Shown piece by piece: positions 25,271 through 55,952 of a DNA stretch of 64,000 bases. Under the pieces are notes generated by a model. That model did not search any database, was not told where the DNA came from, and was given only the letters and a program-made list of their open reading frames with translations. This stretch comes from Casimicrobium huifangae (GTDB lineage Bacteria > Pseudomonadota > Gammaproteobacteria > Burkholderiales > Casimicrobiaceae). A program made the translations under genes and the position numbers. Where the stretch lies: NCBI RefSeq assembly GCF_009746125.1, contig NZ_CP041352.1:1658436-1722435 (forward strand), written 5' to 3'. Within the stretch, counting starts at the first letter, position 1. Each line of letters opens with the position of its first letter.

Positions 25271-25296
25271 CAAAATGGACGAAACAGTACATTTTG
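25271..25296. promoter_or_regulatory. Operator over the TetR-gene start codon
   Basis: CAAAAT-N14-ATTTTG, extended to a perfect 9-bp inverted repeat CGCAAAATG (25269-25277) / CATTTTGCG (25290-25298). The left arm contains the ATG of the TetR gene. The same 26-bp layout occurs at 26115-26140. Confidence 0.65.
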
Positions 25297-26030
25297 CGCA
25301 TTCCGAAAATCTGCCCACAACGACGCGGTCCGGCCGAGCCCGTGGCACCGCCCGGCATTCGGCGACTTCCACGGCGCAATCCGGGGCGAAGGCGGCGGCT
25401 CAACGAGAGCGCACCCGCACCAACGATCCGGAACGCACCAAGGCTGAAATCCTCGCCGTAGCAAAGGCCGAATTCGCCGAGAAGGGACTCGACGGTGCGC
25501 GGATCGACGAGATCGCGGCCGCAACCCGCACCAGCAAGCGGATGATCTACTACTACTTCGGCAGCAAAGAAGGGCTCTACGTTGCTGTTTTAGAGGCGGC
25601 GTACCGCGAGACGCGCGAGGCCGAAGCCGAGTTGCGACTGGACGACTTTACGCCGGAAGATGCGCTGCGCAAGCTGGTGGGGCGCGCTTTCGACCGCTGC
25701 ATGCAGAACCAGTGGTACGTGCGGCTGGTGGCCAACGAGAATATCCAGCGCGGAAAGTACATCGCCGAGAGCAAAGCCATTCAGCAGCTCAATGTTCCAG
25801 TGATCGATACCATCCGCCGGCTTTACGAGCGCGGCGTCAGGCAGGGCAGTTTCCGGTCTGGCATCGACGCCGTCGACCTGCACGCCTCCATTTCCGCGTT
25901 GACTTTTTTCAATGTATCGAACCAGCATACGTTCGGCTGCATTTTCCAGATTGACTGGCAGAACGTGCAGACCATCACGGCTCGGCGCGACAGCATTATT
26001 GAGATGATCGTCCGGTTTGTTCGCAAGTAA
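25275..26030 (+). CDS. TetR-family regulator of the TRAP/shikimate-dehydrogenase-like cluster
   Basis: 251 residues. A disordered N-terminus of about 55 residues rich in Thr, Arg and Ala precedes the TetR helix-turn-helix (TKAEILAVAKAEFAEKG, IDEIAAATRTSKRMIYYYF). The C-terminal ligand domain contains RAFDRCMQNQWYVRLVANEN and a TetR_C-like end. A CAAAAT-N14-ATTTTG repeat lies over its start codon and another before the downstream TRAP operon, so it probably controls itself and those genes. The effector may be a hydroaromatic acid (inference). Confidence 0.88.
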   Translation: MDETVHFAHSENLPTTTRSGRARGTARHSATSTAQSGAKAAAQRERTRTNDPERTKAEILAVAKAEFAEKGLDGARIDEIAAATRTSKRMIYYYFGSKEGLYVAVLEAAYRETREAEAELRLDDFTPEDALRKLVGRAFDRCMQNQWYVRLVANENIQRGKYIAESKAIQQLNVPVIDTIRRLYERGVRQGSFRSGIDAVDLHASISALTFFNVSNQHTFGCIFQIDWQNVQTITARRDSIIEMIVRFVRK

Positions 26031-26203: not shown

Positions 26204-26743
26204 ATGCTGGAACGAGTCATCGACGGCTACTGCAAAGCCATTGGCTACCTCATCGCGGCAATGCTTGCGGTCATGGTTGTGCTGGTCTTCGGCAACGTAG
26301 TCATGCGCTACGCATTCAATTCCGGATTCACGATCTCGGAAGAGCTTTCGCGCTGGCTGTTCGTATGGTTGACCTTTCTGGGCGCCGTGGTCGCGTTGCG
26401 CAGTAACTCACACCTCGGCACAGACATGCTGGTGGGGCGTCTGGGGCCAGCCGGAAAGCGCATCTGCATGGGCATTGCGCTGGCGCTGATGCTCTATTGC
26501 CTGTGGTTGCTGTTCAAGGGGTCCTACGATCAGACGATCATCAACTGGTCGTCAACCAGCGCCGTGATGGAGGTGTCGATGGCGTGGTTCTACTCGGCGG
26601 GAATGGTGATGGCCGTCCTGGGGGCACTCATCGTGCTGAGCGATTTGTGGCGACTGGTCACCGGCAAACTGGACGACGACCATCTCGTCCTGATGCAGGA
26701 GTCAGAAGAAGCTCCGCATACGCCCGCCAACGCCGGCAAATAG
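26204..26743 (+). CDS. TRAP transporter small membrane subunit (DctQ type)
   Basis: 179 residues with four membrane helices. VFGNVVMRYAFNSGF and EELSRWLFVWLTFLGAVVAL are the DctQ hallmark. It pairs with the large subunit encoded 9 bp downstream. AAGGAGG stands in front of the ATG. The transporter imports an organic acid using an ion gradient and a periplasmic receptor. Confidence 0.93.
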   Translation: MLERVIDGYCKAIGYLIAAMLAVMVVLVFGNVVMRYAFNSGFTISEELSRWLFVWLTFLGAVVALRSNSHLGTDMLVGRLGPAGKRICMGIALALMLYCLWLLFKGSYDQTIINWSSTSAVMEVSMAWFYSAGMVMAVLGALIVLSDLWRLVTGKLDDDHLVLMQESEEAPHTPANAGK

Positions 26744-26752
26744 GGGCGCGCC

Positions 26753-28030
26753 ATGACAATCGCAATTTTCGTTGGTTCGCTGCTACTTGCAATGGCGCTG
26801 GGTGTGCCCATCGCATTCTCCCTGTTGCTCTGCGGCGCCGCGCTGATGTGGCATCTCGGCATGTTCGACGCGCAAATCCTCGCGCAGAACGTCATTGAAG
26901 GAGCCAACAGTTTTCCCCTGCTTGCGGTGCCGTTCTTCATGCTTGCCGGCGAGGTGATGAATGCCGGTGGCCTGTCGCGCCGGATTGTCAACTTTGCGAT
27001 GGCACTGGTTGGCCATGTCAAGGGTGGCCTGGGCTACGTCACCATTGTTGCAGCGGTGATCATGGCGGCGTTGTCCGGGTCGGCCGTGGCCGATGCAGCA
27101 GCGTTGACGGCACTGCTGCTGCCGATGATGGTGGCGGCCGGCCATGACCGCGCTCGATCCGCCGGGCTGATCGCGTCAGCCGGCATCATTGCGCCGATCA
27201 TTCCGCCAAGCATCGGCTTCGTGATCTTCGGTGTGACCGCGAATGTGTCCGTATCCAAACTCTTCATGGCTGGCATTGTTCCGGGCATCTGGCTGGCGCT
27301 GGCGCTGTGGGTTACCTGGTGGTGGCTGGTTCGCAAGGAGAAAGTCACGCCGCCGCCGCGGCAATCCAGGAGCGAGGTGTTCAAGGCCTTTCGCGAGGCG
27401 ACCTGGGCACTCGTCCTGCCGTTCATCATTGTCTTTGGTCTCAAGTTTGGCATCTTCACGCCCACCGAAGCAGCGGTGGTCGCCGCTGTCTACGCGATCT
27501 TTGTGTCGCTCGTTGTCTACCGTGAGCTGAGTTTCCGGCAGCTGGTGCCGTTGTTTATTGCTGCAGCTACGACCTGCGCTGTGGTGATGTTTCTGGTTGC
27601 TGCGGCAATGGTTTCGGCGTGGCTGATCACTGTCGCCAACCTGCCGGCACAGCTGGTTGATTTGCTGCGGCCACTCATGGACAACCCCAAACTGCTGATG
27701 GTTGCGATCATGGTGATAACGATGATCGTAGGTACAGCGCTGGACATGACACCAACCATCCTGCTGCTGACGCCGGTGCTGATGCCGGTGGTCAAAGCCG
27801 CCGGCATCGACCCGGTCTACTTTGGTGTGCTGTTCATTATCAATAACGCGATTGGTCTGGTCACGCCGCCGGTAGGTACGGTGCTCAACGCGGTGGCTGG
27901 CGTTGGCAAAGTCAGCATGGATGATGTGACGAAAGGCGTCATGCCGTTCATGATTGCGCAGTTCGTCATCATGTTCCTGATGGTCGCCTTCCCGCAACTG
28001 GTCATGGTTCCGGCACGCTGGTTCTATTAA
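26753..28030 (+). CDS. TRAP transporter large membrane subunit (DctM type)
   Basis: 425 residues, about 12 membrane segments. Family landmarks: NSFPLLAVPFFMLAGEVMN, LSGSAVADAAAL, IIAPIIPPSIGFVIFGV and NNAIGLVTPPVGTVLNAV. It forms the transport path with the DctQ subunit. The receptor gene follows after 60 bp. Confidence 0.95.
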   Translation: MTIAIFVGSLLLAMALGVPIAFSLLLCGAALMWHLGMFDAQILAQNVIEGANSFPLLAVPFFMLAGEVMNAGGLSRRIVNFAMALVGHVKGGLGYVTIVAAVIMAALSGSAVADAAALTALLLPMMVAAGHDRARSAGLIASAGIIAPIIPPSIGFVIFGVTANVSVSKLFMAGIVPGIWLALALWVTWWWLVRKEKVTPPPRQSRSEVFKAFREATWALVLPFIIVFGLKFGIFTPTEAAVVAAVYAIFVSLVVYRELSFRQLVPLFIAAATTCAVVMFLVAAAMVSAWLITVANLPAQLVDLLRPLMDNPKLLMVAIMVITMIVGTALDMTPTILLLTPVLMPVVKAAGIDPVYFGVLFIINNAIGLVTPPVGTVLNAVAGVGKVSMDDVTKGVMPFMIAQFVIMFLMVAFPQLVMVPARWFY

Positions 28031-28090
28031 TTTTTTCGTATCTGCGGTTACTAATTTTTGCCCGTTACTCAAACTCACTGGAGGAAATCA

Positions 28091-29101
28091 ATGAAACACA
28101 TGTTGTTGAAGGCCGTGGCGCTTGGCGTCACCGCGATCGCGATGGCTGCCGCATCGGCACAAGACATCAAGGAGCGTGCATTCAAGTTCCATCTCGCCGG
28201 CCCGGAAGGCAATCACCCGGCCTCGCCAGGAATGAAGAAATTCGCTGAGCTGGTCAGTCAGCGCTCGGGCGGCAAGATGAAGGTGAACCTGTTTTTCAAC
28301 AGCGCCTTGGGCACGGATCAGGCGGTGGTGTCATCGCTCAAGGGCGGCACTGTCGAACTGGCGGTAATGAACACCGGCATTCTCGCCAGTGAAGCCAAGG
28401 AACTGGCGATATTTGACTTCCCGTTCCTGTTTGCCAACGAGAAAGAGTCTGATGCAGTTGTCGACGGTGCTATCGGCAAGAAGATGCATGCCCTGCTTGA
28501 GCCGAAGGGTATTGTCGGACTTGCTTATTGGGAGCTGGGTTATCGTCAGATCACCAACAGCAAGCGGGCGCTCAACAAGGTCGAGGATATCGAAGGCCTG
28601 AAGCTGCGTGTGATCCCGAACCCGATCAATGTCGCCTGGGTAAAGGCGCTGGGTGCGAACCCGACGCCGATGCCGTTCGCTGAGGTTTACGGCGGGCTCG
28701 AGCAGAAAGCAATCGATGGTCAGGAGAACCCGATTGGTGTGATCGCTGCCAACAAGTTCTGGGAGGTCCAGAAGTTTATGGCCATCACCAACCATCAGTA
28801 CAACCCGCAGTCCGTGCTGTTCAGCAAGAAGGTTTGGGACACCCTGTCTTCAGCGGAGAAGAAGATTCTCGATGACGCCGCGCACGAGTCCGCACTGGTG
28901 CAGCGCAAAGAGTCGCGGGCACAGGTTGCAGGCAATCTTGAGCTGCTGAAGAAGAACGGCATGACCGTCACTTCGTTTGGCCCGGCCGAAGTTGCCAAGC
29001 TGCGCGAGAAGATGAAGCCGGTGATCGCCCAGTTCACCGCCAACGTGGGTGAGCCGCTGGTCAATGAAATGAACGCTGAACTGGCGAAGATGCGCAAGTA
29101 A
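28091..29101 (+). CDS. TRAP transporter substrate-binding protein (DctP type)
   Basis: 336 residues with a signal peptide (MKHMLLKAVALGVTAIAMAA, cleavage after ASA). The fold motifs are GPEGNHPASPGMKKFAELV, LGTDQAVVSSLKGG, GYRQITNSKRAL, GLKLRVIPNP and QENPIGVI; the Arg in KLRVIPNP should bind the ligand carboxylate. GGAGG precedes ATG 28091. With the oxidoreductases downstream the ligand may be a quinate- or shikimate-like acid (inference). Confidence 0.93.
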   Translation: MKHMLLKAVALGVTAIAMAAASAQDIKERAFKFHLAGPEGNHPASPGMKKFAELVSQRSGGKMKVNLFFNSALGTDQAVVSSLKGGTVELAVMNTGILASEAKELAIFDFPFLFANEKESDAVVDGAIGKKMHALLEPKGIVGLAYWELGYRQITNSKRALNKVEDIEGLKLRVIPNPINVAWVKALGANPTPMPFAEVYGGLEQKAIDGQENPIGVIAANKFWEVQKFMAITNHQYNPQSVLFSKKVWDTLSSAEKKILDDAAHESALVQRKESRAQVAGNLELLKKNGMTVTSFGPAEVAKLREKMKPVIAQFTANVGEPLVNEMNAELAKMRK

Positions 29102-29250: not shown

Positions 29251-30294
29251 ATGAGCAAGACACGTATTGCGGTTGCGGGGGCTGGTCTGATTGGCCGTAG
29301 CCATATCAATGTCGTTCAGGCGAGCGCAACGGTCGAACTGACTGCTGTCGTCGACCCGTCACCTCAAGCTGATGCAATCGCCAACGCCGCTGGCGTCCCG
29401 CTTTACCGTACGCTGGAAGACTTGCTTCAACAGAAGCGACCCGACGGCATCGTTCTGGCCACTCCGAACCAACTGCATGTGCCACAGGCGTTGCAATGCA
29501 TTGAAGCTGGAGTCGCCTGCCTGCTTGAGAAGCCGATTGCGCCAACGGTCGCGGAGGCTGAAGCGCTGGTCACGGCGGCAGACATGCGCGGCGCGCGCCT
29601 GCTGATCGGACATCATCGGGCCCACAGTCCGATCATGGCCAAGGCATGCGCTGTCGTGCAATCGGGCCAGCTTGGCCGTGTTGTGGGTGTGATGGGCAGC
29701 GCGACCTTCTTCAAGCCCGATCACTATTTTGACGATGGACCCTGGCGACGCGAAGTCGGTGGTGGACCTATCCTTATCAACATGATCCACGAGGTGCACA
29801 ACCTGCGGATGCTGTGCGGGGAAGTGACTGCGGTGCAGGCGATCAAGTCACATGCCCTACGCGGCTTTGCCGTGGAGGACACCGTCGCCATCAGCCTGCA
29901 ATTTGCCAGCGGAGCGCTTGGCAGTTTCCTGCTGTCCGATGTCGCGGCGTCGGCGCGGAGCTGGGAGCACACCTCGCAGGAAAACAAGGCGTACCCAACG
30001 TATGAGGACGAGGACTGCTATGTGATTAGCGGCACCGACGGCACTTTGTCGGTCCCGACGATGCGTCTGAAGACCTATCCGCGCGCTGAGGATCGCTCAT
30101 GGTGGAAGCCGTTCGAGGTTGGCGTCGTGGGCATGGTGCGAGAGGACCCGCTGAAGCGGCAGATGGAGCATTTCGGCGCGGTTGTCAGGGGCGAAGTGGC
30201 TCCGCTGGTGTCTGCCCGTGACGGCTTGCAGAATCTGCGCGTGACTGAGGCAATCACTCTCGCGGCCGCGACTGGTCAACTCGTTCGCATATAG
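29251..30294 (+). CDS. Gfo/Idh/MocA-family oxidoreductase
   Basis: About 347 residues. The N-terminal NAD(P)-binding Rossmann fold begins RIAVAGAGLIGRSHINVVQ; EKPIAPTVAEAEALV is the conserved Lys-Pro motif that lies at the active site. The C-terminal domain has the GGGPILINMIHEVHNLRML helix with the usual Asp/His region. ATG 29251 follows GGAAG; an ATG at 29236 is also in frame. It probably oxidises a ring hydroxyl of the imported compound (inference from context). Confidence 0.88.
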   Translation: MSKTRIAVAGAGLIGRSHINVVQASATVELTAVVDPSPQADAIANAAGVPLYRTLEDLLQQKRPDGIVLATPNQLHVPQALQCIEAGVACLLEKPIAPTVAEAEALVTAADMRGARLLIGHHRAHSPIMAKACAVVQSGQLGRVVGVMGSATFFKPDHYFDDGPWRREVGGGPILINMIHEVHNLRMLCGEVTAVQAIKSHALRGFAVEDTVAISLQFASGALGSFLLSDVAASARSWEHTSQENKAYPTYEDEDCYVISGTDGTLSVPTMRLKTYPRAEDRSWWKPFEVGVVGMVREDPLKRQMEHFGAVVRGEVAPLVSARDGLQNLRVTEAITLAAATGQLVRI

Positions 30295-30334: not shown

Positions 30335-31171
30335 ATGATTACCGGCAACACAGAACTCATCGCTCACATCGGTTACCCGACGCACAGCTTCAAGGCGCCG
30401 ATGATTTACAACCCGTACTTTGACAGCATTGGCGTCAACGCCTGCGTCGTCCCCATGGGCTGCAAGCCCGATGACTTTCCTGCCTTCCTGCGAGCCGTAT
30501 TTTCGCTGACCAATATCCGTGGCGCGCTGATTACGATGCCCCACAAGGTCGCTGTGGTGGATCTGGTTGATCGCGTCACGCCAACGGTCTCGGTCGCAGG
30601 GTCGTGCAACGCGGTGCGAATCGGCGCGGATGGCAGGCTCGAAGGCGACATGTTTGATGGCGAAGGCTTCGTTCGCGGTGTCAAACGCAAGGGCATCACC
30701 GTGGCAGGTGCCAGCGTGCTGGTGGTGGGTAGCGGCGGTGTCGGCTCTGCGATTGCAGCATCGTTCGCGGCCGCAGGCGTCTCCCGCATTGCGTTGTTCG
30801 ACGTGAATACCGTTTCGATGGAGGCGTTGGCCGCGAGACTGAGACAGCACTACCCTGCGCTTGATGTGCAAACCGGTAGCAATGATCCCGCTGGCTTTGA
30901 CATCGCGCTGAACGCGACGCCAATGGGAATGAACCCCGGTGATCCACTCCCCATGGACGTGTCGCGCATCGCATCAACCACGTTTGTCGGTGAAGTGGTC
31001 ATGCGCGCCGAAACGACAGCGTTCCTCGCGGCCGTACAGGCACGTGGCTGCCGCGTCCAGGTTGGCACCGACATGCTGTTCGAGCAGATCCCGGCCTATC
31101 TCGAATACTTCGGATTTCCGACGACCACGGCGGACACGCTGCGCAACGTCGCGCAGATCAAGTACGCGTGA
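30335..31171 (+). CDS. Shikimate dehydrogenase-like protein (AroE family)
   Basis: 278 residues. The N-terminal substrate domain has HIGYPTHSFKAPMIYN where true AroE has HSxSP, so one of the two shikimate-binding Ser is not kept. The catalytic Lys is present in TMPHKVAVVD and the Asp in GDMFDGEGF (AroE usually NTD). The NAD(P) domain is VLVVGSGGVGSAIAASFAAAG. These changes place it among SDH-like enzymes rather than the biosynthetic AroE. Neighbouring transporter and Gfo/Idh genes point to catabolism of hydroaromatic acids. Confidence 0.85.
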   Translation: MITGNTELIAHIGYPTHSFKAPMIYNPYFDSIGVNACVVPMGCKPDDFPAFLRAVFSLTNIRGALITMPHKVAVVDLVDRVTPTVSVAGSCNAVRIGADGRLEGDMFDGEGFVRGVKRKGITVAGASVLVVGSGGVGSAIAASFAAAGVSRIALFDVNTVSMEALAARLRQHYPALDVQTGSNDPAGFDIALNATPMGMNPGDPLPMDVSRIASTTFVGEVVMRAETTAFLAAVQARGCRVQVGTDMLFEQIPAYLEYFGFPTTTADTLRNVAQIKYA

Positions 31172-31241: not shown

Positions 31242-32186
31242 ATGGTTGCCATACTGTCAGTCACCGCCCCGATCTTCGTACTGATGGCGATCGGCTATCT
31301 CGCCGTTCGTTCCGGGCTGCTGTCGAAGACTGACAATCAGGCGCTGGGTCGGTTTGTCCTCTACTTTTGCATTCCGGCGCTGCTGTTCCGCGCGTTTGCA
31401 CAGCGGCGACTGGGCGAAGTGTTTGACGCCAGTTATCTAGTTGCCTACGGTGCAGGCTCGATGGCAGCGTTCGTCACGGTGTTGTTGCTTGCGCGGCTGT
31501 GGCGGGGCAATATCAAGGCGATGAGCGGGATGCAGGCGATGGGAGCCTGCTCGTCGAATAGTGCGTTCATCGGCTACCCGATCGCGGTCCAGGTGTTCGG
31601 GCCGGTCGCGGGGGTGGCGCTCGCACTGTGCACGCTGATCGAAAACCTTATCACGATCCCCTGGGGGCTGGCCTATGCGGAGGGCGGTTCCGGTAACACG
31701 CAGCGCTGGCAACAAGCGCTCCTGCAATCGTTACGTGGGCTCGTGCGCAATCCGATGATCTACGGCATTGGCGCCGGCATCGTGTTCTCGGCGCTGAGCA
31801 TCCCATTGCCATCGTTTGCCTCGTCAACACTTGGATTGCTGGCGACTGCTTCCAGTCCGGTCGCCCTGTTCGTGATTGGTGGCTCGCTGGTCGGGCTGCA
31901 ACTGGACGGGCAGCGTACCGATATCGCCATTGTGGTCATCGGCAAGTTGCTGCTGCATCCACTTGCGGTGGCTGGCACGTTGTTGTTGCTTCCCGCGACC
32001 GATCCACTATTGGCCAAGGCTGCCGTGCTCTACGCCGCTGTGCCGATGCTCAGTATCTACGCGGTGCTGGCACAGCGACACGGTCAACAGGGCTTTTGTG
32101 CAGCAACCCTGCTGGCGACCACCGTTGCATCCTTCGCTACCATCACTGCCTGGCTTTGGTGGCTGGACGCGGCACCACTGCGTTAG
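31242..32186 (+). CDS. AEC (auxin efflux carrier) family transporter
   Basis: 314 residues with about ten membrane helices. PIFVLMAIGYLAVRSGLLS at the start, ACSSNSAFIGYPIAVQVFG in the middle and NPMIYGIGAGIVFSAL leading to the second half are typical of AEC carriers. In bacteria these move malate, malonate or similar acids. It is the last plus-strand gene of the cluster; whether it exports an intermediate is unknown. Confidence 0.88.
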   Translation: MVAILSVTAPIFVLMAIGYLAVRSGLLSKTDNQALGRFVLYFCIPALLFRAFAQRRLGEVFDASYLVAYGAGSMAAFVTVLLLARLWRGNIKAMSGMQAMGACSSNSAFIGYPIAVQVFGPVAGVALALCTLIENLITIPWGLAYAEGGSGNTQRWQQALLQSLRGLVRNPMIYGIGAGIVFSALSIPLPSFASSTLGLLATASSPVALFVIGGSLVGLQLDGQRTDIAIVVIGKLLLHPLAVAGTLLLLPATDPLLAKAAVLYAAVPMLSIYAVLAQRHGQQGFCAATLLATTVASFATITAWLWWLDAAPLR

Positions 32187-45809: not shown

Positions 45810-46634
45810 CTAGAGCCGGCTACGCAACTGCTCCGCCGCAGCCTTGAGCGGCGGTACGCAGCGCCGCACTGACACCGCTGGCGTCATCGACGAAATCGCC
45901 ATTGACGCGCTGATAGCACCGACCGCCGCACCTGTGCTGTCAATCAACGGTACAGCAACACCGCGCAGTCCAAGCTCAAACTGACCTTCGGTGACGCAAT
46001 ACCCCTGTTTGCGGACTTTAGTCAGCTCGCGGCGCAGTGCTTCCTTGTCAGTCACGGTGAATGGCGTGAAGGCGCCGAGTGGCGTGCGCGCCAGCCAGCG
46101 TTCCAGATCGTCCGGCGGCAGATAGCTCAGCAGCAAACGGCCGGCGGCCGACGTGTGCGCGGGCAGGCGGGTGCCAGGCTCGATTAGCGTGGAGAGCAGC
46201 TTCGGCGCGCTGACGCGACCGATGTAGACCGCATCCGCGTCCTCCAGAACTGCCAGATTGGTCGATTCGCCGATGGTGTTGGTGAGCGTCTGCAGCACCG
46301 GCATCACCGTACGCGGCAGCCGGGCCGACGCCAGATAGGAGTGCCCCAGCCGCATCACCTTCGGCGTCAGCCAGAAAGCCTTGCCATCGGTGGCCATGTA
46401 GCCAAGCGCACTGAGTGTCATCAGATAGCGCCGCGCGGCAGCACGGCTCAGGTCCAGCCGTTGCGCGAGCTCGCTCTGTGTGAGCTTTGGCGTGGTGTCG
46501 TCGAACGCGCAGATCACCTCCAGCCCCTTGCGCAGGCCGTCGATCATGTCGGCACGCGAGACTTCCAGACTAACCGTCGTTGACGGCGTCGCCGGATGTT
46601 CGTGCGAGTCTGTGCTGGGTGATGGGCTCTTCAC
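45810..46634 (-). CDS. PcaR/PobR-like IclR-family regulator
   Basis: 274 residues. After a 25-residue flexible start the helix-turn-helix reads GLEVICAFDDTTPKLTQSEL and LDLSRAAARRYLMTLSALGY, the PcaR/PobR style, and FWLTPKVMRLGHSYLASARL continues it. The effector domain has TSAAGRLLLSYLPPDD and LGLRGVAVPLIDSTG. PcaR proteins respond to 3-oxoadipate or protocatechuate. Two PcaR-like boxes lie in the 250-bp divergent region before the dehydratase operon. Confidence 0.85.
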   Translation of the reverse strand: MKSPSPSTDSHEHPATPSTTVSLEVSRADMIDGLRKGLEVICAFDDTTPKLTQSELAQRLDLSRAAARRYLMTLSALGYMATDGKAFWLTPKVMRLGHSYLASARLPRTVMPVLQTLTNTIGESTNLAVLEDADAVYIGRVSAPKLLSTLIEPGTRLPAHTSAAGRLLLSYLPPDDLERWLARTPLGAFTPFTVTDKEALRRELTKVRKQGYCVTEGQFELGLRGVAVPLIDSTGAAVGAISASMAISSMTPAVSVRRCVPPLKAAAEQLRSRL

Positions 46635-46885: not shown

Positions 46886-47785
46886 ATGACTGAAACTGTC
46901 AGCAAACAAAAGAGCGGCACGACTCCCCCGGCCAACCCTCTGGGCGTAGCGGGCATTGAGTACGTCGAATACGCAACACATGAACCGCAGAGCTTTGGCG
47001 CTGCGCTCGAAAAGTTGGGTTTCGTTGCCGTGGCCCGTCATCGCAGCCGTGAGATCGTGCTCTACCGCGCCGGCGGCATGAATGTGATTGTCAATGCCGA
47101 CCCGGCCGTCGCCGGTGTCGCAGGCGGCGATGATGATGAACCGCAGACGCCACGTCTGAAGGCCTTCGCGTTGCGTGTGCGCGATGCGGCTGCAGCGTAC
47201 GAACACTGCGTGGAAAAGGGCGCATGGCCAATCGTGCCGCGCGTCGGTGCGATGGAACTCAACATTCCCGGCATTTCGGGGGTCGGTGACAGCATCATCT
47301 ATTTCGTCGATCGCTATCAGGAATTTTCGATCTACGACGTTGATTTCAAGAAGCTGCCGTCAGCGGCCGAAGCGCACCCGGCGATCGCCGGTATGCACTT
47401 CTTCGGCATCGTGCAGTCCATCGAGGAAGGCCGTACCCGCGAGTGGGTGGACTTCTACCGCGAACTGTTCGGCTTTCTGGTGCTGCCCCAGGGGCAGTAT
47501 TTCGGTGTGCTGCCGAAAGGCACGCTGCTGGAAAGCCCGTGTCTGCAGTTCTATCTGCAGCTGGTCGAACCGCCGGAGCAGGCCGCCGTGCTGGCGTGGC
47601 AGGAAAAGCTCACGCGTGTTGGTTTTGGTGCGCCTGACATCACGGAGCTGGTCAGCCAGTTGCGCGCGCGAGGCGTCAATTTCGTCGAGAGCGATTCGGT
47701 GCACACCAGTGATCGTGGCGCCGTCACCTATCTGGGCGGGACGTCGTTCGAGTTCGTCAAGAGCCATCTGCCCGCAACGGAGTAG
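46886..47785 (+). CDS. HPPD-like VOC-fold protein, partner of 3-dehydroshikimate dehydratase
   Basis: 299 residues, two VOC halves: GIEYVEYATHEPQSFGAALE and GMHFFGIVQSIEEGRTREWV, resembling 4-hydroxyphenylpyruvate dioxygenase and the C-terminal half of QuiC-type dehydratases. Two of the three HPPD metal ligands can be placed (His171, Glu289 in TSFEFVKS); at the third, HPPD's QHIA region, the sequence is LTRVGFGAPDI without His. So dioxygenase activity is doubtful. The sugar-isomerase-fold dehydratase follows 3 bp later: in relatives the two are one fused protein. Confidence 0.75.
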   Translation: MTETVSKQKSGTTPPANPLGVAGIEYVEYATHEPQSFGAALEKLGFVAVARHRSREIVLYRAGGMNVIVNADPAVAGVAGGDDDEPQTPRLKAFALRVRDAAAAYEHCVEKGAWPIVPRVGAMELNIPGISGVGDSIIYFVDRYQEFSIYDVDFKKLPSAAEAHPAIAGMHFFGIVQSIEEGRTREWVDFYRELFGFLVLPQGQYFGVLPKGTLLESPCLQFYLQLVEPPEQAAVLAWQEKLTRVGFGAPDITELVSQLRARGVNFVESDSVHTSDRGAVTYLGGTSFEFVKSHLPATE

Positions 47786-47788
47786 CGC

Positions 47789-48676
47789 GTGAATCTCGGC
47801 GACTTCTCCATGGACACCATCACCCTGCCGGGCTCGCTGGAAAGCAAGCTTGATGCAGCGAACGCAGCGGGCTTCAGCCAGATCACGCTGTGGGCGAAGG
47901 ATCTGGCGGGCCATCCCGATGGTTACGAGGCGGCGCTCAACGAGGTGCGGCTCTCCGGTTTGCGCGTCAATGGCATCCAGGTGATGCGTGACTACGAAGG
48001 CCTGTCCGGGCCGTTGCACCGCTACAAGGTGGAAACGGTCAAGACCATGCTCAAGCTGTGCGAGGCCGTCGGCGCCGAGCGTTTGCTGATTTGCTCATCC
48101 ACTTCTGCCCATGCTTCGGGCGACGTTGACCACATCGCCGCCGACCTGCGCAAGGTTGCCATGCTGGCGACGCCGCTCGGCATCCGGGTCGGCTATGAAG
48201 CGCTGTCGTGGGGCCGTCACGTCAGCGACTTCGAGTTGTCCTGGGAGATTGTGCAGCGTGCTGATCGCGCCAATCTCGGTGTCTGCATCGACGCCTTTCA
48301 TGTGTTGGCCAACTGCGGCCTCAATGGCACCAATTTCGATGCGCTGGCCACCATTCCGGGCGAACGTATCGCCTTCGTGCAGTTGTCGGATTTTCTGTGG
48401 AAGGCCGTTCGCACGCCGGAAGAACGCATCGAGACGGCGCGCCACCTGCGTGTGTTCCCCGGCGAAGGAGTGCACAGCGCAGAGCTGTCACGCATGATCC
48501 GCATGATTGATCGTTCCGGCTACCGCGGCGACTGGAGTTTTGAAGTCTTCAACGACGACTACCTGCAGATGCCCGTCGACATCGTGGCGCAGCGCGCGCG
48601 AGATGCCGCCATGTGGGTGGCGGCGCAGAGCGAACGGCGCAGTCTGCCGCGGACACTGGTTCGTGGCAGCCACTAA
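47789..48676 (+). CDS. Probable 3-dehydroshikimate dehydratase (TIM-barrel)
   Basis: 295 residues of the xylose-isomerase-like TIM-barrel family, GTG start. Metal ligands fit the QuiC/AroZ order: Glu137 (GYEALSWGRH), Asp168 (CIDAFHVL), Gln198 (AFVQLSDFLW) and Glu252 (WSFEVFNDDY). It should convert 3-dehydroshikimate to protocatechuate. Gene order (PcaR-like regulator, VOC protein, this gene, importer, pcaIJF) supports that over sugar metabolism. In pseudomonads it is fused to the VOC protein; here separate. Confidence 0.8.
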   Translation: MNLGDFSMDTITLPGSLESKLDAANAAGFSQITLWAKDLAGHPDGYEAALNEVRLSGLRVNGIQVMRDYEGLSGPLHRYKVETVKTMLKLCEAVGAERLLICSSTSAHASGDVDHIAADLRKVAMLATPLGIRVGYEALSWGRHVSDFELSWEIVQRADRANLGVCIDAFHVLANCGLNGTNFDALATIPGERIAFVQLSDFLWKAVRTPEERIETARHLRVFPGEGVHSAELSRMIRMIDRSGYRGDWSFEVFNDDYLQMPVDIVAQRARDAAMWVAAQSERRSLPRTLVRGSH

Positions 48677-48696
48677 GAACACCAAGGAGGATTTAC

Positions 48697-49572
48697 ATGA
48701 CTGATTTCATGCAGCTCCTGCTGAGCGGCGTGGCCACGGGGGCGATCTATGCGATGGCCGCCCTCGGCTTCACGCTGCTCTGGCAGGCCGCTGGCACCAT
48801 CAATTTTGCGCAGGGCGAGTTCGTCATGCTGCCAGCGTTTGCCATGCTGATTGGCATGTCGTTCGGTCTGCCGCTGTGGGCGTCGTTCATCGTCGCGGTC
48901 GCGCTGTCGGTCGTGGTGCTCGGTGCCGCGTTCAAACGCTGGATTGTTGACCCGATGCGCGGCAGCGGTGTCGTGGCTGTTGTGGTGGCGACCCTGGGTC
49001 TGTCGATTGGCCTCAAGTCGCTGGTCAAGGCGGGTTACAGCGCCGAGCCGCATCCATTTCCGAGCATCTTTGGCGATGAAGTGTTCAAGCTGGCAGGCGT
49101 CACCGTGTCGTATGCCGACGTCGGAGCGCTGGTGTTTGCCGGGCTGATGGTGGTCGGCCTGCAGACGTTCCTGAACCGGACGATTACCGGTCGTGCCATG
49201 CAGGCGGTGGCGCAGAACACCTTCTCCGCCGAAGCGCTAGGCATCAACGTCAAGCGGATGATTTTCTATACGTTTGCGATCAACGCCATTCTGGTGTGCG
49301 TGACGGCGCTGCTGATTACGCCGACCTATCTCGCCAAGTTCGATATGGGTGACAACATCGGCCTGAAGGCGTTCTTCGCGGCGATCATCGGCGGCTTCAA
49401 CAATTCGCGCGGTGCACTGCTGGGCGGTGTGCTGGTCGGTGTGCTCGAAAATCTGGCGGGCGCCTACATCACGCCAGCGTACAAGGATGGTGTCGCGCTG
49501 TTGCTGTTTCTCGCCGTGATCCTGGTCAAGCCGGACGGTTTGCTTGGTACACCGCAGGAAAGGAAGGTCTGA
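48697..49572 (+). CDS. Branched-chain-type ABC permease (LivH)
   Basis: About 291 residues, eight or so helices. QLLLSGVATGAIYAMAALGF at the start and AAGTINFAQGEFVMLPAF are LivH signatures; later NRTITGRAMQAVAQN and GGFNNSRGALLGGVLVG. ATG 48697 follows AAGGAGG. It begins the importer that follows the dehydratase gene. Substrate is likely an aromatic or hydroaromatic acid rather than leucine (context inference). Confidence 0.92.
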   Translation: MTDFMQLLLSGVATGAIYAMAALGFTLLWQAAGTINFAQGEFVMLPAFAMLIGMSFGLPLWASFIVAVALSVVVLGAAFKRWIVDPMRGSGVVAVVVATLGLSIGLKSLVKAGYSAEPHPFPSIFGDEVFKLAGVTVSYADVGALVFAGLMVVGLQTFLNRTITGRAMQAVAQNTFSAEALGINVKRMIFYTFAINAILVCVTALLITPTYLAKFDMGDNIGLKAFFAAIIGGFNNSRGALLGGVLVGVLENLAGAYITPAYKDGVALLLFLAVILVKPDGLLGTPQERKV

Positions 49573-49574
49573 CG

Positions 49575-50579
49575 ATGTCAAAACAGCATCTGGCCTTTCT
49601 CACGGTTGCCGTCGCCGCACTGGCGATCGCCCCTGCGCTGCTCAAAACCTACGGGCTCTATCTGTTGACGCTGTGGCTTGTCTACATCATCGCTGCAATG
49701 GGGCTCAACCTGACTGTCGGCTACGCCGGCCTCAAGTCGCTTTGCCATGCCGGATTCATGGGAGTGGGGGCGTATACCGTCGCCATCATGATGAAGGCGG
49801 GCTTCTCGTTCTGGCTTGCCAGTCCGGTCGCGATTGTGCTTTGCTTCGTGCTCGGGCTGGTCATCGGTTTCCCGGCATTGCGCGTGCAATTGCACTATCT
49901 GGGCTTTGCGACACTGGGCTTCAATCTGTTGCTGGTGCTGTTCTTCCGCAACGAAGAATGGCTGACTGGCGGTACCTTCGGCATCCAGAACATCAAGCGC
50001 CCGGAGCTTTTCGGTTTTTCCTTTGAAGGCAATCTGGCGTTCTACTTTCTGGTGCTGCTGATCACGCTGGTCGCTGGTGCCGTGCTGGCTGCGCTGCTGC
50101 GCTCGCCGTGGGGACGGGCGTTCGCGGCGTTGCGCGACAACCCGATTCGCGCGGAAAGTACGGGCGTGAATATCACCGCCTACACGCTGATGTCGTTCGC
50201 GATCGGCGCCGCCTATGCCGGTATCGCCGGGGCGCTGTTCGCGCCGCTGGTGAACTTCATCGAACCGGCACCGTTCGGCATTGCCAACTCGCTCCTGTTC
50301 CTGATGATGGTGGTCGTGGGTGGCTCCGGACGCTTCTACGGGCCAGTGCTCGGTGCCGCGATCGCACTGCTGCTGCCCGAGTATTTGCGCTTCCTGAAGG
50401 ACTGGTATCTCGCCGTGTTTGGCTTCGCGGCCGTCATCATGATGATCTGGCTGCCGGGCGGACTGCTTTCGTTGCGCGAAGCGCTGCTGCTGCGCAAGGC
50501 CAAGCGGGAGGCGAAGCAGAAAGAGCTGTCGGAACGCGCTGCAGCGGCAGCCGGCAAAGGCACGGTGGAGGCAGCATGA
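49575..50579 (+). CDS. Branched-chain-type ABC permease (LivM)
   Basis: 334 residues. YIIAAMGLNLTVGYAGLKSL, HAGFMGVGAYTVAIMM, SPWGRAFAALRDNPIRAEST and MMVVVGGSGRFYGPVLGAA are LivM landmarks. The last 30 residues are charged (KREAKQKELSERAAAAA). Starts 2 bp after livH and overlaps the ATPase gene (ATGA). Confidence 0.93.
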   Translation: MSKQHLAFLTVAVAALAIAPALLKTYGLYLLTLWLVYIIAAMGLNLTVGYAGLKSLCHAGFMGVGAYTVAIMMKAGFSFWLASPVAIVLCFVLGLVIGFPALRVQLHYLGFATLGFNLLLVLFFRNEEWLTGGTFGIQNIKRPELFGFSFEGNLAFYFLVLLITLVAGAVLAALLRSPWGRAFAALRDNPIRAESTGVNITAYTLMSFAIGAAYAGIAGALFAPLVNFIEPAPFGIANSLLFLMMVVVGGSGRFYGPVLGAAIALLLPEYLRFLKDWYLAVFGFAAVIMMIWLPGGLLSLREALLLRKAKREAKQKELSERAAAAAGKGTVEAA

Positions 50580-51316
50580 GCATCCTTTCAGTTCATGACA
50601 TCAAGAAGAGCTACGGCGCCATCCAGGCGGTCAGCGGTGTCAGCTTCAACGTCGAGCCTGGTGAAATTCTTGGCGTGATCGGTCCCAATGGCAGCGGCAA
50701 GACGACGCTGTTCAATTCGATTCTCGGCCAGATCAAGCCGGACAGTGGTCGCGTCGAGTTTGAAGGCGTGGACATCTCCGGCAACTCGCCGCTGGAAATG
50801 TCGCGCCTTGGAATCGGCCGTACCTTCCAGAACCTGCAGGTGTTCGGCAAGCTGTCGCTGCGCGACAACCTGATTGCCGCAGCGCAGGAATTTCACGGTA
50901 CCTTCTGGGGCCGCATGTTTGCACCGCCGGACAACGGTCTGCGCGAGCGGGCCGACGAAATGATCGAGATGTTCCGGCTCAAGCACGTAGCCGATTTGCC
51001 CGCCGGCAGCCTGTCGTACGGGCAGCAGAAGCTGGTGGATATCGCCATGGCTTTCATGCCGGCGCCGCGTCTGGTGCTGCTCGACGAGCCCTGCGCCGGC
51101 GTCAATCCCTCGCTGGTTGACGGGCTGCGCGAGCTGCTGGTCGAACTGAACAAAAAACAGGGCGGCAGCTTTGTCGTGATCGAACACAACATGGACTTCG
51201 TCATGAAGCTCTGTCACCGCATCGTTTGCATGGTGGAAGGCAAAGTGCTCGCAGTCGGCAAGCCCGAAGAAATCCAGAACAACCGCGAAGTGCTGGAGGC
51301 CTACCTTGGCAACTAA
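50576..51316 (+). CDS. ABC transporter ATPase (LivG)
   Basis: 246 residues. Walker A GPNGSGKTTLFNSILG, signature LSYGQQKLVDIAMAFM, Walker B LVLLDEPCAGVNPSL and switch His VIEHNMDFVM. The Ser-Tyr-Gly-Gln variant of the signature (usual Ser-Gly-Gly) is seen in LivG proteins. It overlaps the preceding permease gene and the following ATPase gene. Confidence 0.94.
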   Translation: MSILSVHDIKKSYGAIQAVSGVSFNVEPGEILGVIGPNGSGKTTLFNSILGQIKPDSGRVEFEGVDISGNSPLEMSRLGIGRTFQNLQVFGKLSLRDNLIAAAQEFHGTFWGRMFAPPDNGLRERADEMIEMFRLKHVADLPAGSLSYGQQKLVDIAMAFMPAPRLVLLDEPCAGVNPSLVDGLRELLVELNKKQGGSFVVIEHNMDFVMKLCHRIVCMVEGKVLAVGKPEEIQNNREVLEAYLGN

Positions 51317-52061
51317 TCCCGCTTCCGCCGCGCCACGCAGCGAATCGCTGATCCAGTTCGATGCTGTTGTCGCTGGCTACACGCATCTCACCATCCTGAA
51401 TAAGCTGACGCTTGACGCCCGCAAGGGCGAAATTACCCTGCTGATCGGCCCGAATGGCGCCGGCAAGTCGACGGTGCTGAAAACCCTGTTCGGGATGCTG
51501 ACGCCGCGTTCCGGTGAAGTTCGCTTTGGTGGCAAGGTGATCAACGGACGCACACCGCGGCAACTGCTCGGCGAAGGCATGGCCTTCGTGCCGCAGGGAC
51601 GCAACCTGTTTGGCTCGTTGAGCGTATTGCACAACCTCGAACTGGGCGGCCTGCAACTGCCCAAGAAGCTGCTGCGCGAACGCATTGATGAAGTGATGGA
51701 GCTCTTCCCGCGTCTCAAGCAACGCATCGACTCGCGGGCCGCGTCACTGTCCGGCGGCGAGCAGAAGCAGCTCGAGATTGGCCGTGCGCTGCTGGTCAAA
51801 CCGGAAGTGATCCTGATTGACGAACCCTCCATCGGGCTGGCGCCGATCATCGTGCAGGACGTCATGCAACTGCTGCGCAAACTGGCCGATTCGGGCAAGA
51901 GCGTGCTGATGGTGGAGCAGAATGTGCGCACCGCACTCAAGTTTTCGGATCGGGCGCTGGCGCTGGAGATGGGCCGGCTGGCCGTGGATCGACCGGCGTC
52001 CGAGCTGCTGAATGATCCGAACCTGAACCGGCTGTTTCTGGGCGGTCACGCCAAAACCTAG
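51306..52061 (+). CDS. ABC transporter ATPase (LivF)
   Basis: 251 residues, TTG start inside the end of livG. Walker A GPNGAGKSTVLKTLFG, signature LSGGEQKQLEIGRAL, Walker B VILIDEPSIGLAPI, switch His replaced by Gln in MVEQNVRTAL as usual in LivF. The receptor gene follows 82 bp later. Confidence 0.93.
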   Translation: MATNPASAAPRSESLIQFDAVVAGYTHLTILNKLTLDARKGEITLLIGPNGAGKSTVLKTLFGMLTPRSGEVRFGGKVINGRTPRQLLGEGMAFVPQGRNLFGSLSVLHNLELGGLQLPKKLLRERIDEVMELFPRLKQRIDSRAASLSGGEQKQLEIGRALLVKPEVILIDEPSIGLAPIIVQDVMQLLRKLADSGKSVLMVEQNVRTALKFSDRALALEMGRLAVDRPASELLNDPNLNRLFLGGHAKT

Positions 52062-52143
52062 TGCCTCAGGGAATTCCCTGTCGGCGCATCGAAATTCGCT
52101 ACGTTACCAATCGTCGTCAAGACACTTTCAACTGGAGGAAGAC

Positions 52144-53277
52144 ATGAACAAGAAACTCGCACAGGCGATGGGCCTGACAGCAGCACTGCTGGCAGCGTCT
52201 GCCTATGCACAGAACATCAAAGTGGCGCAAGTCGTCGAGCTGTCGGGCGGCGGCACCGCAGCGGGCACCATGTATCGCAACGGGGCCAAGCTGGCGATCA
52301 ACGAAATCAACGCTGCGGGCGGCGTGATGGGCAAAAAGATCGAATCGGTCGAAATGGACACCCAGTCGCAGCCCGCCATTGCCAAGGCGATGACCGTCAA
52401 GGCCATTGACGAGAAAGTCACTGCCATTTTTGGCCCGGTATTCTCCGGTTCCATTCTGGTCAGCCAGACCGAGAGCCAGAAGGCCAATATCCCCAACTTC
52501 ACCGGTGGTGAGGCGTCGAATGTGACGGCCCAGGGCAATCCGTACATCTTCCGCTCCTCGTTCAATCAGGCGATGGGCATGCCGAAAGTGGCGAACTATC
52601 TGGCCAACGATCTCAAGGCGAAGTCGGTCGCCGTGGTGTTTGTCAACAATGACTTCGGCAAGGGTGGTCGTGACGCCATCATCAAGGAGCTCGGTGCCCG
52701 CAATGTCAAGGTTGCGGCCGATATTTCCACCGATCCGGGCCAGGTCGACATGTCCTCTGCCGTGCTGCGTGCCAAGCAGGCCAACGCCGATGCGCTGTTC
52801 GCCTACCTTAACGAGGAAGAATCAGCTCGCCTGCTGAAAGAGCTGCGCAAACAGGGCTACGACAAGCCGATGGTTGGTGAAACCACGCTGATGGGCGCCA
52901 AGGTGATTGAGCTTGCCGGCTCTGCAGCCAACGGTGTGCGCGGCCATGTGGGCCTGACGGCAGACGCCCCGATGTTCAAGGACTTCGGCGCCAAGTTCGA
53001 GAAAGAATTCAAGACCAAGCCGGATCACAACGGCATCAAGGGCTACTTCTCGGCCTACATGCTGAAGGCTGCGATCGAAAAGGCCAAGAGCACCGACGGC
53101 AAGGCGATTGCCGCTGCGATGAAGAACGCCTGCTTCAAGGTCAAGGACAATCCCGGCATCCTGCTTGACGTCTGCTTCGACGACAAGGGTGACATCGACC
53201 GTGAGAGCTTCCTGGTCGAAGTGAAGGATGGCAAGCAGGTAGTGACGCAAACGCTGCCGATGCTGAACAAGCGCTGA
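52144..53277 (+). CDS. ABC transporter substrate-binding protein (LivK type)
   Basis: 377 residues with a signal peptide (GLTAALLAASAYAQN). VVELSGGGTAAGTMYRNGAK, AINEINAAGGVMGKKIESVE, GPVFSGSILVSQTES and AVVFVNNDFGKGGRDAIIKE are the type-I periplasmic receptor pattern. The gene closes the importer operon and is followed by a terminator. The ligand is probably an acid of the protocatechuate/shikimate group (inference). Confidence 0.92.
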   Translation: MNKKLAQAMGLTAALLAASAYAQNIKVAQVVELSGGGTAAGTMYRNGAKLAINEINAAGGVMGKKIESVEMDTQSQPAIAKAMTVKAIDEKVTAIFGPVFSGSILVSQTESQKANIPNFTGGEASNVTAQGNPYIFRSSFNQAMGMPKVANYLANDLKAKSVAVVFVNNDFGKGGRDAIIKELGARNVKVAADISTDPGQVDMSSAVLRAKQANADALFAYLNEEESARLLKELRKQGYDKPMVGETTLMGAKVIELAGSAANGVRGHVGLTADAPMFKDFGAKFEKEFKTKPDHNGIKGYFSAYMLKAAIEKAKSTDGKAIAAAMKNACFKVKDNPGILLDVCFDDKGDIDRESFLVEVKDGKQVVTQTLPMLNKR

Positions 53278-53296
53278 TCACCAGTCGCTGACACAA

Positions 53297-53322
53297 AAAA
53301 GGCTCGCTTCGGCGGGCCTTTT
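53297..53322 (+). terminator. Rho-independent terminator after the receptor gene
   Basis: AAAAGGCTCGC, TTCG loop closed by C-G, then GCGGGCCTTTT: an 11-bp stem with one T-G wobble and a stable UUCG-type loop, 19 bp after the stop. Confidence 0.9.
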
Positions 53323-53399
53323 CTTCATTGGCGATTGCCAGCGAGCCGCCAATGGCACTTTCGAGCGGGCAATCGAAACGCGACTTCTACAATCGTTGC

Positions 53400-54080
53400 A
53401 TGATCGACAAAACGCAAGCTTCGGTCGCAACGGCGGTTGCGGATGTTCCGGATGGTGCCACCGTAATGATTGGTGGCTTTGGCGGGGCCGGCATGCCGGT
53501 GGCGCTGGTTGATGGCCTGATTGTCCAGGGGGCGCGTGATCTCACTATCGTGGCCAACAATGCTGGCAATGGCGAAACCGGAATCGCCGCACTGCTCAAG
53601 GCAGGGCGGGTGCGCAAGGTGATCTGCTCGTTTCCGCGGCAGGCCGACTCCTACGTGTTCGATGCGCTGTATCGAGCCGGCAAGGTTGAGCTGGAGCTGG
53701 TGCCGCAGGGCAATCTGGCCGAACGCATCCGCGCTGCCGGCGCCGGTATCGGTGGCTTCTTTACCCGCGTGGGTTACGGTACGCCGCTCGCCGCCGGCAA
53801 GGAAGTGCGCGAGATTGACGGCCAGATGTATGTCTACGAGTCGCCGATCCGCGCCGACTTCGCGTTGATCAAGGCCGAGCTGGGCGATCGCTGGGGCAAC
53901 CTTACCTATCGCAAGTCAGCACGCAACTTTGGTCCGCTGATGGCGATGGCGGCGACTGTGACGATCGCTTCGGTGCACGAGGTGGTGCCGCTCGGTGACA
54001 TCCATCCCGAGCACGTGGTGACGCCCGGTATCTTCGTGCAGCGTATTGTCGAAGTGCAGCGGATGGAGATGGCGGCATGA
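53400..54080 (+). CDS. pcaI: 3-oxoacid (3-oxoadipate) CoA-transferase subunit A
   Basis: 226 residues. MIGGFGGAGMPVALVDGLI near the start is the CoA-transferase family I alpha motif; GFFTRVGYGTPLAAGKEVRE and the end HPEHVVTPGIFVQRIVEV match PcaI/ScoA. ATG 53400 is chosen for length; a longer frame upstream has no family support. It overlaps subunit B by 4 bp, and the thiolase follows, so 3-oxoadipate is the likely substrate. Confidence 0.88.
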   Translation: MIDKTQASVATAVADVPDGATVMIGGFGGAGMPVALVDGLIVQGARDLTIVANNAGNGETGIAALLKAGRVRKVICSFPRQADSYVFDALYRAGKVELELVPQGNLAERIRAAGAGIGGFFTRVGYGTPLAAGKEVREIDGQMYVYESPIRADFALIKAELGDRWGNLTYRKSARNFGPLMAMAATVTIASVHEVVPLGDIHPEHVVTPGIFVQRIVEVQRMEMAA

Positions 54081-54718: not shown

Positions 54719-54749
54719 CTACTCACCACTTTTTGAACGAGCTGCTGCC

Positions 54750-55952
<1,203 letters not shown>

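Follow-up and report, generated by a model that had tools for sequence, protein, structure and literature searches.

AroEL of Casimicrobium huifangae: a distinct shikimate dehydrogenase family clade in a quinate/shikimate catabolic setting

Introduction

Which substrate is taken by an enzyme of the shikimate dehydrogenase (SDH) family whose substrate-binding motifs are altered and whose gene follows those of a tripartite ATP-independent periplasmic (TRAP) transporter? The question is raised by a gene of Casimicrobium huifangae (Burkholderiales; Casimicrobiaceae), here named AroEL, which was analysed within a stretch of 64,000 nucleotides, termed the window (NCBI RefSeq assembly GCF_009746125.1, contig NZ_CP041352.1, positions 1,658,436 to 1,722,435, forward strand). 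AroEL is a single intact open reading frame (ORF) at 30335–31171 (+) of the window, encodes 278 aa and starts 40 bases past a gene for a Gfo/Idh-type oxidoreductase. An earlier note, made from the sequence alone, had proposed that the enzyme acts on a hydroaromatic acid other than shikimate, matched to the linked TRAP receptor and Gfo/Idh enzyme.

Family, clade, neighbourhood, transporter homology, conserved catalytic residues and predicted fold were computed. AroEL forms a distinct, well-supported SDH-family clade in a quinate/shikimate catabolic setting and, judged from these sequence comparisons, is probably the NAD+-dependent entry dehydrogenase of that catabolism. In its specific form, the reading we favour with some reserve is that of an NAD+-dependent catabolic dehydrogenase of quinate, perhaps also of shikimate, in the operon slot of the quinate dehydrogenase QsuD.

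Results and discussion

Family, clade and predicted fold

PF08501 (Shikimate_dh_N) scored 53.2 bits on AroEL against a cut-off of 27, which places the protein in the broad SDH fold family, and the active-site set of this family is complete (Lys71, Asp108, Asn92 and Gln251). Among the best 25 of the 34 matching NCBIfam families, no cut-off was reached (top score 139.5 bits against 252). Biosynthetic AroE models were missed among the matches listed, the best at these 139.5 bits and TIGR00507 at 127.6 bits against 200.2, and so were the YdiB model NF009390 (85.9 bits, cut-off 349) and the QsuD model NF010631 (92.2 bits, cut-off 515), from whose clades AroEL is separate as well. In place of the AroE hallmarks Ser14, Ser16 and NRT, it has Phe19, Ala21 and Asp156-Val-Asn.

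In the tree, the AroEL clade comprised 27 sampled rows (support 100/99) from Comamonadaceae, other Burkholderiales, rhizobia and Roseobacteraceae, with L007_b, L082_b and L088_b as its sister (100/97). It was placed within a 41-row superclade including PDB entry 4k28 (100/99), apart from AroE, YdiB and QsuD. The AroE clade consisted of seven rows (E. coli, the L003 protein of the host genome and five Comamonadaceae; 100/100). AroEL falls outside this clade, which supports the earlier note; with the NCBIfam cut-offs missed as well, its identity as biosynthetic AroE was rejected. A search of the host genome (one contig, 4.47 Mb) with AroEL returned three SDH-family genes, namely AroEL, a paralogue of 38% identity and one of 25% identity (L003). 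The latter is the biosynthetic enzyme: all three motifs HSKSP, NTD and NRT are present, and the tree joins it to E. coli AroE with a support of 100/100.

The AlphaFold2 model of AroEL reached a mean predicted local distance difference test (pLDDT) value of 95.2 and a predicted template modelling (pTM) score of 0.91. Its first-ranked Foldseek match was 4k28 (E 9.5e-28, 34% identity), which we take to be RifI2 of Pseudomonas putida, from the RifI/RifI2 class of aminoshikimate dehydrogenases, while in VIA-align the YdiB-type entries, 3tnl and 4k28 were tied at Z 32.7–33.4, followed by 2nlo at 29.7; the matches of both programs to SDH structures span nearly the whole length of the protein. Ael1 of P. 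putida, equated with 3pwz by its structure title, ranked 45 in Foldseek with Z 28.2 against AroEL and is absent from the tree.

Database labels on AroEL genes read 'shikimate dehydrogenase' or even 'ThiF family adenylyltransferase', the latter for instance on the Ponticoccus gene (L004 9001–9834). On the window protein, PF00899 (ThiF) likewise scores above its Pfam threshold (34.4 against 28.1), the match arising from the nucleotide-binding loop; this mis-annotation is therefore systematic. A search of open-licence PMC literature found no paper on the AroEL clade or its substrate.

Altered and retained residues

Residue equivalences were taken from a MAFFT alignment mapped onto E. coli AroE numbering, and conservation was counted in 84 of 102 family members (window ORF included), 18 having been dropped for identity below 60%. 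The earlier note had read HSFKAP as replacing HSxSP and GDMFD as replacing GxNTD, with the catalytic Lys and Asp retained. HSFKAP is indeed present (residues 17–22), but not as a letter-for-letter swap, since its HS is offset by one: the alignment against IAHSKSP of E. coli AroE is ungapped and pairs Ser14 with Phe19, Lys15 with Lys20 and Ser16 with Ala21. The Lys of the motif is thus the ordinary x of SxS, by which its reading as an insertion is ruled out; it is not new either, HSKSP being found in E. coli AroE and in the AroE of the host genome. GDMFD occupies residues 104–108, but the exchange of Thr for Phe in NTD also occurs in Comamonadaceae AroE proteins that group with E. coli AroE (ENFDG) and is not diagnostic, and GDMFD was rejected as proof of a new substrate. 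As both this Phe and the Lys occur in ordinary AroE, the two motifs alone do not show a new substrate. The catalytic pair is retained as stated, with Lys65 corresponding to Lys71 and Asp102 to Asp108; Thr61 (Thr67), Asn86 (Asn92) and Gln244 (Gln251) are kept as well.

Further changes relative to E. coli AroE are Asn59 to Leu65, Thr87 to Ala93, Asn100 to Met106, Thr101 to Phe107 and Tyr215 to Met223. Those of Asn59, Asn100 and Tyr215 had been missed at first reading, and several polar substrate-side positions are now non-polar. Phe19, Lys20 and Phe107 are each present in 84/84 family ORFs at ≥60% identity; position 21 varies, 50 of these ORFs having Ser and 34 having Ala, so Ala21 of the window protein is one of two natural states. 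Ser14, Ser16 and Tyr215 are substrate carboxylate residues in this fold family; with Phe, Ala or Ser, and Met in their places, the acid group must be held otherwise. At the position of the AroE motif NRT, AroEL has Asp156-Val-Asn, which makes NAD+ its likely cofactor: in plant enzymes, according to PMC7752791, NRT is tied to NADP and DID to NAD.

A Neorhizobium homologue (L106 7001–7825, 54% identical) reads ETCST where others have GDMFD, the catalytic Asp being lost in that frame; two frameshifts that cancel each other out, or an error in the sequence, are the likely cause.

Gene neighbourhoods

Scanning bacterial genomes yielded at least 586 confirmed relatives and a set of 80 loci; neighbourhoods were counted in 79, L047 being left out with no AroEL ORF assigned. 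ORFs were clustered by all-against-all BLAST, and family representatives were named via Pfam. Within 5 kb of AroEL, 74/79 loci carried a gene for AroQ (type II dehydroquinate dehydratase) and/or a QuiC-type gene (TIM-barrel half, glyoxalase half or fusion), as did 54 of the 57 loci that are flanked by 4 kb or more in each direction. Within the same distance, AroQ was found in 46 loci, the TIM-barrel half of QuiC in 45, its half resembling 4-hydroxyphenylpyruvate dioxygenase (HPPD) in 43 and the fusion in 4. TRAP genes were present in 62/79 (DctQ in 51, DctM in 61 and DctP in 59) and a TetR homologue in 53/79. With two AroQ genes in the 4.47-Mb host genome, the chance of AroQ in a random 10-kb stretch is well under 1%, a figure that is no statistical test, many of the 79 loci being related to each other.

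The AroEL–AroQ link is kept even in rearranged alphaproteobacterial clusters: in Rhizobium (L006), an ATP-binding cassette (ABC) importer, AroQ, Gfo/Idh and AroEL lie together with QuiC and pca genes nearby, and in Marinovum (L008), TRAP, AroQ and Gfo/Idh genes are divergent from AroEL, with a QuiC-type gene nearby. L007 has AroEL amid pca genes with a QuiC-type fusion. In the stretches read of two plasmid loci, Terrarubrum (L005) and Ponticoccus (L004), no AroQ or QuiC-type fusion was found; a TRAP receptor and a TIM-barrel gene of no assigned class are encoded in the Ponticoccus stretch.

The Gfo/Idh/MocA-family gene of the window (29251–30294 (+), start uncertain, ORF opens 29236; PF01408 98.5 bits) is 45.8–47.2% identical to the Gfo/Idh genes of L006 and L008. 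The earlier note had tied the substrate to this enzyme; the gene does adjoin AroEL, but with a homologue within 5 kb in 7/79 loci it is a minor, accessory partner.

Many loci (L009, L014 and L028 among them) have the HPPD-like and TIM-barrel QuiC genes directly after AroEL and no nearby AroQ, as would suit a catabolic dehydrogenase of shikimate, not quinate, that gives 3-dehydroshikimate directly to the QuiC pair. The 46 loci with AroQ speak against such an enzyme, a dehydrogenase active on both acids would fit every one of the neighbourhoods, and the S. meliloti receptor described below (PMC3454389) favours quinate more than 15,000-fold. We regard a restriction to shikimate as quite unlikely.

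Transporter and the S. meliloti quinate system

Upstream of AroEL, the window encodes a TetR-family regulator (TetR_C_29; 25275–26030 (+); PF17938 136 bits, PF00440 52 bits), likely that of the operon, followed by the TRAP small permease DctQ (26204–26743 (+); PF04290 112 bits), the large permease DctM (26753–28030 (+); PF06808 411 bits) and the solute receptor DctP (28088–29101 (+), start uncertain, ORF opens 28058; PF03480 298 bits), which is predicted to be of the quinate type. According to PMC3454389, the Sinorhizobium meliloti TRAP receptor SMb20036 binds D-quinate with a dissociation constant of 5.9e-9 M and shikimate with one of 1.0e-4 M, and D-quinate induces it 8.7-fold; the receptor belongs to the TRAP genes SMb20034-36, after which comes SMb20037, a gene with the annotation AroE. 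In S. meliloti 1021, genes for TetR, DctQ, DctM, DctP and an SDH were found in this order on the plasmid pSymB (NC_003078), the first four with 48, 49, 67 and 47% identity to the window genes; the cluster was equated with SMb20034-37 because plasmid and gene order agree. The SDH of the pSymB cluster shares 52% identity with the Corynebacterium glutamicum quinate dehydrogenase 3jyo and lies within the QsuD clade.

Seven further DctP neighbourhoods were fetched (L118–L124). A QsuD-type SDH (47–51% to 3jyo) accompanies this DctP type in Vitreoscilla (L118, with a split QuiC pair and AroQ), Rhizobium (L119, with a QuiC fusion), Azoarcus (L120) and Azospirillum (L123, with QuiC and AroQ), while L122 has AroQ and QuiC with no SDH in the stretch. 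G026 likewise combines a QsuD-type SDH with DctM (65%) and DctP (50%). A tree of the DctP proteins joined the receptor that accompanies QsuD in Vitreoscilla to those linked with AroEL, as their sister (13 rows, 100/99). The Vitreoscilla locus and a typical Limnohabitans locus differ mainly in dehydrogenase type and AroQ position; it is chiefly for this reason that AroEL is read as taking QsuD's slot, with quinate, or both quinate and shikimate, as substrate. Shikimate uptake via a major facilitator superfamily (MFS) transporter in R. leguminosarum, reported in PMC3333776, is neutral to this reading.

Pathway genes elsewhere in the genome

Two AroQ genes were found in the host genome, one of them directly after a second DctP (L094). 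This DctP gene and that for the type II dehydroquinate dehydratase overlap and form a two-gene unit beside an IclR-type regulator (L094 8734–10205, C1 ~735733–737204); the same IclR-DctP-AroQ trio also stands beside the AroEL operons of L027 and L064. Dehydration to protocatechuate would be covered in the window by a split QuiC-type pair 15.7 kb downstream of AroEL (46886–48676), made up of an HPPD/glyoxalase-like half (46886–47785 (+); NF042435 QuiC 82.6 bits, QuiC positions 288–476) and a TIM-barrel half, a predicted 3-dehydroshikimate dehydratase (47789–48676 (+); 163.4 bits, positions 4–250). The cut-off of NF042435, 1200 bits, is set for the fused protein and is reached by neither half; the HPPD/glyoxalase-like half surfaced in a search of the genome with a fused homologue.

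A cluster at C1:3085–3095 kb encodes a LigB-type dioxygenase (NF009903 580.8 bits, cut-off 317; 554.4 bits on the fused-enzyme model NF009912, whose cut-off of 837 was missed), LigK (416.8 bits, cut-off 304.5) and a hydrolase below its cut-off, and is a probable protocatechuate 4,5-cleavage cluster. From these genes a route can be drawn from quinate via 3-dehydroquinate, 3-dehydroshikimate and protocatechuate to 4,5-cleavage. No PQQ dehydrogenase (TIGR03074) was found in the genome, nor any other entry enzyme besides its total of three SDH-family genes. The first enzyme of the route must therefore be AroEL, the Gfo/Idh protein, the 38% paralogue, AroE or something outside the searches.

The 38% paralogue (GDPIAQVKSP, GDIFDG; L091 6146–13052, C1 ~2642145–2649051) lies between two large FAD-type dehydrogenase ORFs of one family, in company with IclR-type, 248-aa and TIM-barrel ORFs. 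A similar set of FAD, AroE-like and FAD genes stands next to QsuD and QuiC in L130, and the set may serve a second hydroaromatic route.

The LigB-type dioxygenases of the genome would also suit an AroEL that forms gallate by oxidation of 3-dehydroshikimate, an activity of certain plant shikimate dehydrogenases; according to PMC7752791, plant enzymes combining dehydroquinate dehydratase and SDH (DQD/SDH) form gallate via changes at the Asn406/Thr407/Gln582 positions, and AroEL has Ala93 at the Thr position. As it retains Asn92 and Gln251, and the adjacent QuiC-type genes would use the same substrate for protocatechuate, gallate formation is hardly to be expected.

Proposed role

On the favoured quinate/shikimate reading, the TRAP system (window 26.2–29.1 kb) would take up quinate, an acid widespread in plants, and AroEL would oxidise the C3 hydroxyl of quinate, possibly also of shikimate, by its Lys71/Asp108 pair with transfer of hydride from the C3 carbon to NAD+. 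The 3-dehydroquinate formed from quinate would be converted to 3-dehydroshikimate by the type II dehydratase encoded elsewhere, next to the second DctP, and this in turn to protocatechuate by the split QuiC pair (window 46.9–48.7 kb), with protocatechuate 4,5-cleavage to follow. The carboxylate would be held without serine pair or tyrosine, and the invariant Lys20 (84/84) is a candidate for this task. Substrate, direction, NAD+ preference, displacement of QsuD and the role of Lys20 are the predicted elements of this scheme.

It follows for the acid presumed by the earlier note that the direction was right, in view of the placement outside the AroE clade, the separate AroE of the genome and the quinate-type TRAP homology. 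The acid differs from shikimate but is likely quinate and no new compound; 'different' holds for shikimate only, because quinate is a classical substrate of other SDH-family enzymes.

A bolder version, in which a deep branch on the side of RifI2 (4k28) independently became a catabolic quinate dehydrogenase, displaced QsuD in Burkholderiales and binds the carboxylate without serines or tyrosine, for instance via Lys20, is conceivable, though we would not presume it; quinate oxidation would then have arisen once more within this fold, and the same acid would be bound in a second way. If the proposed role is true, AroEL is the enzyme by which quinate use begins in Comamonadaceae (among them Limnohabitans, Polaromonas, Rhodoferax and Ramlibacter), in some rhizobia and in marine Roseobacteraceae. 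It would then also be a clean case of replacement by a distant paralogue within one operon with the substrate grip rebuilt, and the binding determinants would therefore be open to residue swaps.

Counter-evidence and alternatives

Several observations weigh against quinate as the substrate and against an equivalence of AroEL with QsuD. RifI2 reportedly prefers NAD, is weak on shikimate and has trace activity on quinate. The residues by which AroE, YdiB and QsuD bind the carboxylate of quinate or shikimate are not conserved in AroEL, and their loss, taken alone, argues for another substrate. The AroQ genes of the host genome lie outside the AroEL operon, and no pathway gene was found within 5 kb of AroEL in 5/79 loci (L026, L035, L060, L063 and L068). 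On the transporter side, two of the seven DctP neighbourhoods (L121 and L124) are without any quinate gene, and in the DctP tree the receptors linked with AroEL in L039 and L042 belong to a different type. The 25-row group that unites the window DctP with SMb20036 and excludes 7bbr has a support of 83/91, the outgroup not forming one branch side.

Co-occurrence was counted in 150 genomes of the host's order. After G006 (42% identical) had been set aside from 13 AroEL-matching genomes, AroEL was present in 12 and QsuD in 16, with an overlap of 1 where 1.28 is expected (P(≤1) 0.63), so that strict mutual exclusion was rejected. A displacement of QsuD by AroEL is favoured within the genus: the host genome, which has AroEL, gave no match to QsuD at 1e-45, and its sibling G081, of the same genus, has QsuD (as TetR-QsuD with PcaI and PcaF) but gave none to AroEL at 1e-60. 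Two of the six AroEL stretches read (L138 and L139) showed none of 18 markers, and three of the nine QsuD stretches read (L129, L132 and L133) showed no other marker. The genome with both, G143, carries AroEL and QsuD ~10 kb apart (L126/L127, G143:C1:1350000–1376000); AroEL adjoins a split QuiC pair there, while the neighbours of QsuD are AroQ and another kind of TRAP. The two enzymes therefore need not be equivalent; the layout would fit a split into shikimate and quinate roles, thus lending some weight to the shikimate-restricted enzyme considered above, and makes G143 a natural test of that division.

The same side-by-side arrangement, together with the replaced carboxylate-side residues and the Gfo/Idh gene beside AroEL in the window and in 7/79 loci, could be explained if AroEL acted on some other hydroaromatic or cyclitol acid that enters the same route (for example a quinate or shikimate epimer, or a dihydro form of either), leaving quinate to QsuD or Gfo/Idh. 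Such a substrate appears unlikely to us, since many clusters contain only AroEL, AroQ and QuiC-type genes with no second such dehydrogenase within 5 kb, and the transporter homology points to quinate.

Deeper relatives add a last objection. Those of 36–42% identity occur in sugar-acid-type operons (L107 and L108) with genes for an aldolase of the 2-keto-3-deoxygluconate (KDG) type, aldehyde dehydrogenase and altronate dehydratase, and others lie beside FAD enzymes (the paralogue of the host genome and L110). With the 5-ketofructose reductase 7cok/7col in the same fold family, AroEL might be a sugar-acid or polyol dehydrogenase whose link to aromatic catabolism is incidental. The sugar-acid relatives, however, fall on a branch of their own (94/88) and not within the AroEL clade, and pathway genes stand beside AroEL in 74/79 loci, which makes this very improbable.

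Other genes in the window

Directly downstream of AroEL, a Mem_trans permease of the auxin-efflux-carrier type is encoded (31242–32186 (+); PF03547 89 bits), whose family (F48) also follows AroEL in L039, L079 and L084. An IclR-type PcaR/PcaU/PobR-like regulator (45810–46634 (−); TIGR02431 270.2 bits, slightly below the cut-off of 284.75) precedes the split QuiC pair, after which a branched-chain-type ABC importer and PcaI/PcaJ/PcaF follow (48613–55952). The latter are a PcaI-type 3-oxoacid CoA-transferase subunit A (53400–54080 (+); TIGR02429 374.6 bits, cut-off 128.5), a PcaJ-type subunit B (54077–54718 (+); TIGR02428 287.1 bits, cut-off 243.55) and the 3-oxoadipyl-CoA thiolase PcaF (54747–55952 (+); TIGR02430 720.3 bits, cut-off 597). 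No intradiol dioxygenase (PF00775) was found in the host genome, so that these three genes are not explained by a protocatechuate 3,4-branch. A tRNA-Ser (gct) called by ARAGORN within dctM (27078–27174) is probably a false positive.

Comparison with known systems

AroEL resembles P. putida 4k28 most closely among solved proteins in both sequence and structure (36% identity, shared 41-row superclade), and 4k28 likewise has Val for Ser14, Thr for Tyr215 and Asp for the Asn of NRT. Unlike 4k28, which keeps Ser16 and Asn100, AroEL stands on its own deep branch. With YdiB, the E. coli quinate/shikimate dehydrogenase, it shares the fold (Z 33.4 to 1npd, a tie with the 32.7 of 4k28) and the catalytic Lys, Asp, Asn and Gln, but it is 30% identical and in a separate clade, and YdiB has canonical SxS and NTD.

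In plant SDH relatives, Thr381Gly gives quinate activity and Ser338Gly improves it, according to PMC7752791. AroEL is like the plant quinate dehydrogenases in its changed carboxylate-side serine, plant Ser338 aligning to Ala21, and differs from them in keeping the Thr381 equivalent (Thr67); the plant enzymes are, moreover, DQD/SDH fusions, biosynthetic or cytosolic.

To QsuD (C. glutamicum 3jyo/2nlo, S. meliloti SMb20037) AroEL is similar in fold (Z 29.7 to 2nlo, 29.4 to 3jyo), in the operon slot, which has this TRAP type and AroQ/QuiC genes as neighbours in both cases, and in the Asp ending the second nucleotide-binding strand. It is 31% identical to 3jyo and belongs to a separate clade; QsuD keeps Ser14, Thr/Ser16, NTD and Tyr215, whereas AroEL has Phe, Ala/Ser, MFD and Met. 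The S. meliloti system SMb20034-37 finally presents the same TetR-DctQ-DctM-DctP-dehydrogenase order at 47–67% identity, the difference being that its dehydrogenase is of the QsuD type and that the window has an extra Gfo/Idh gene.

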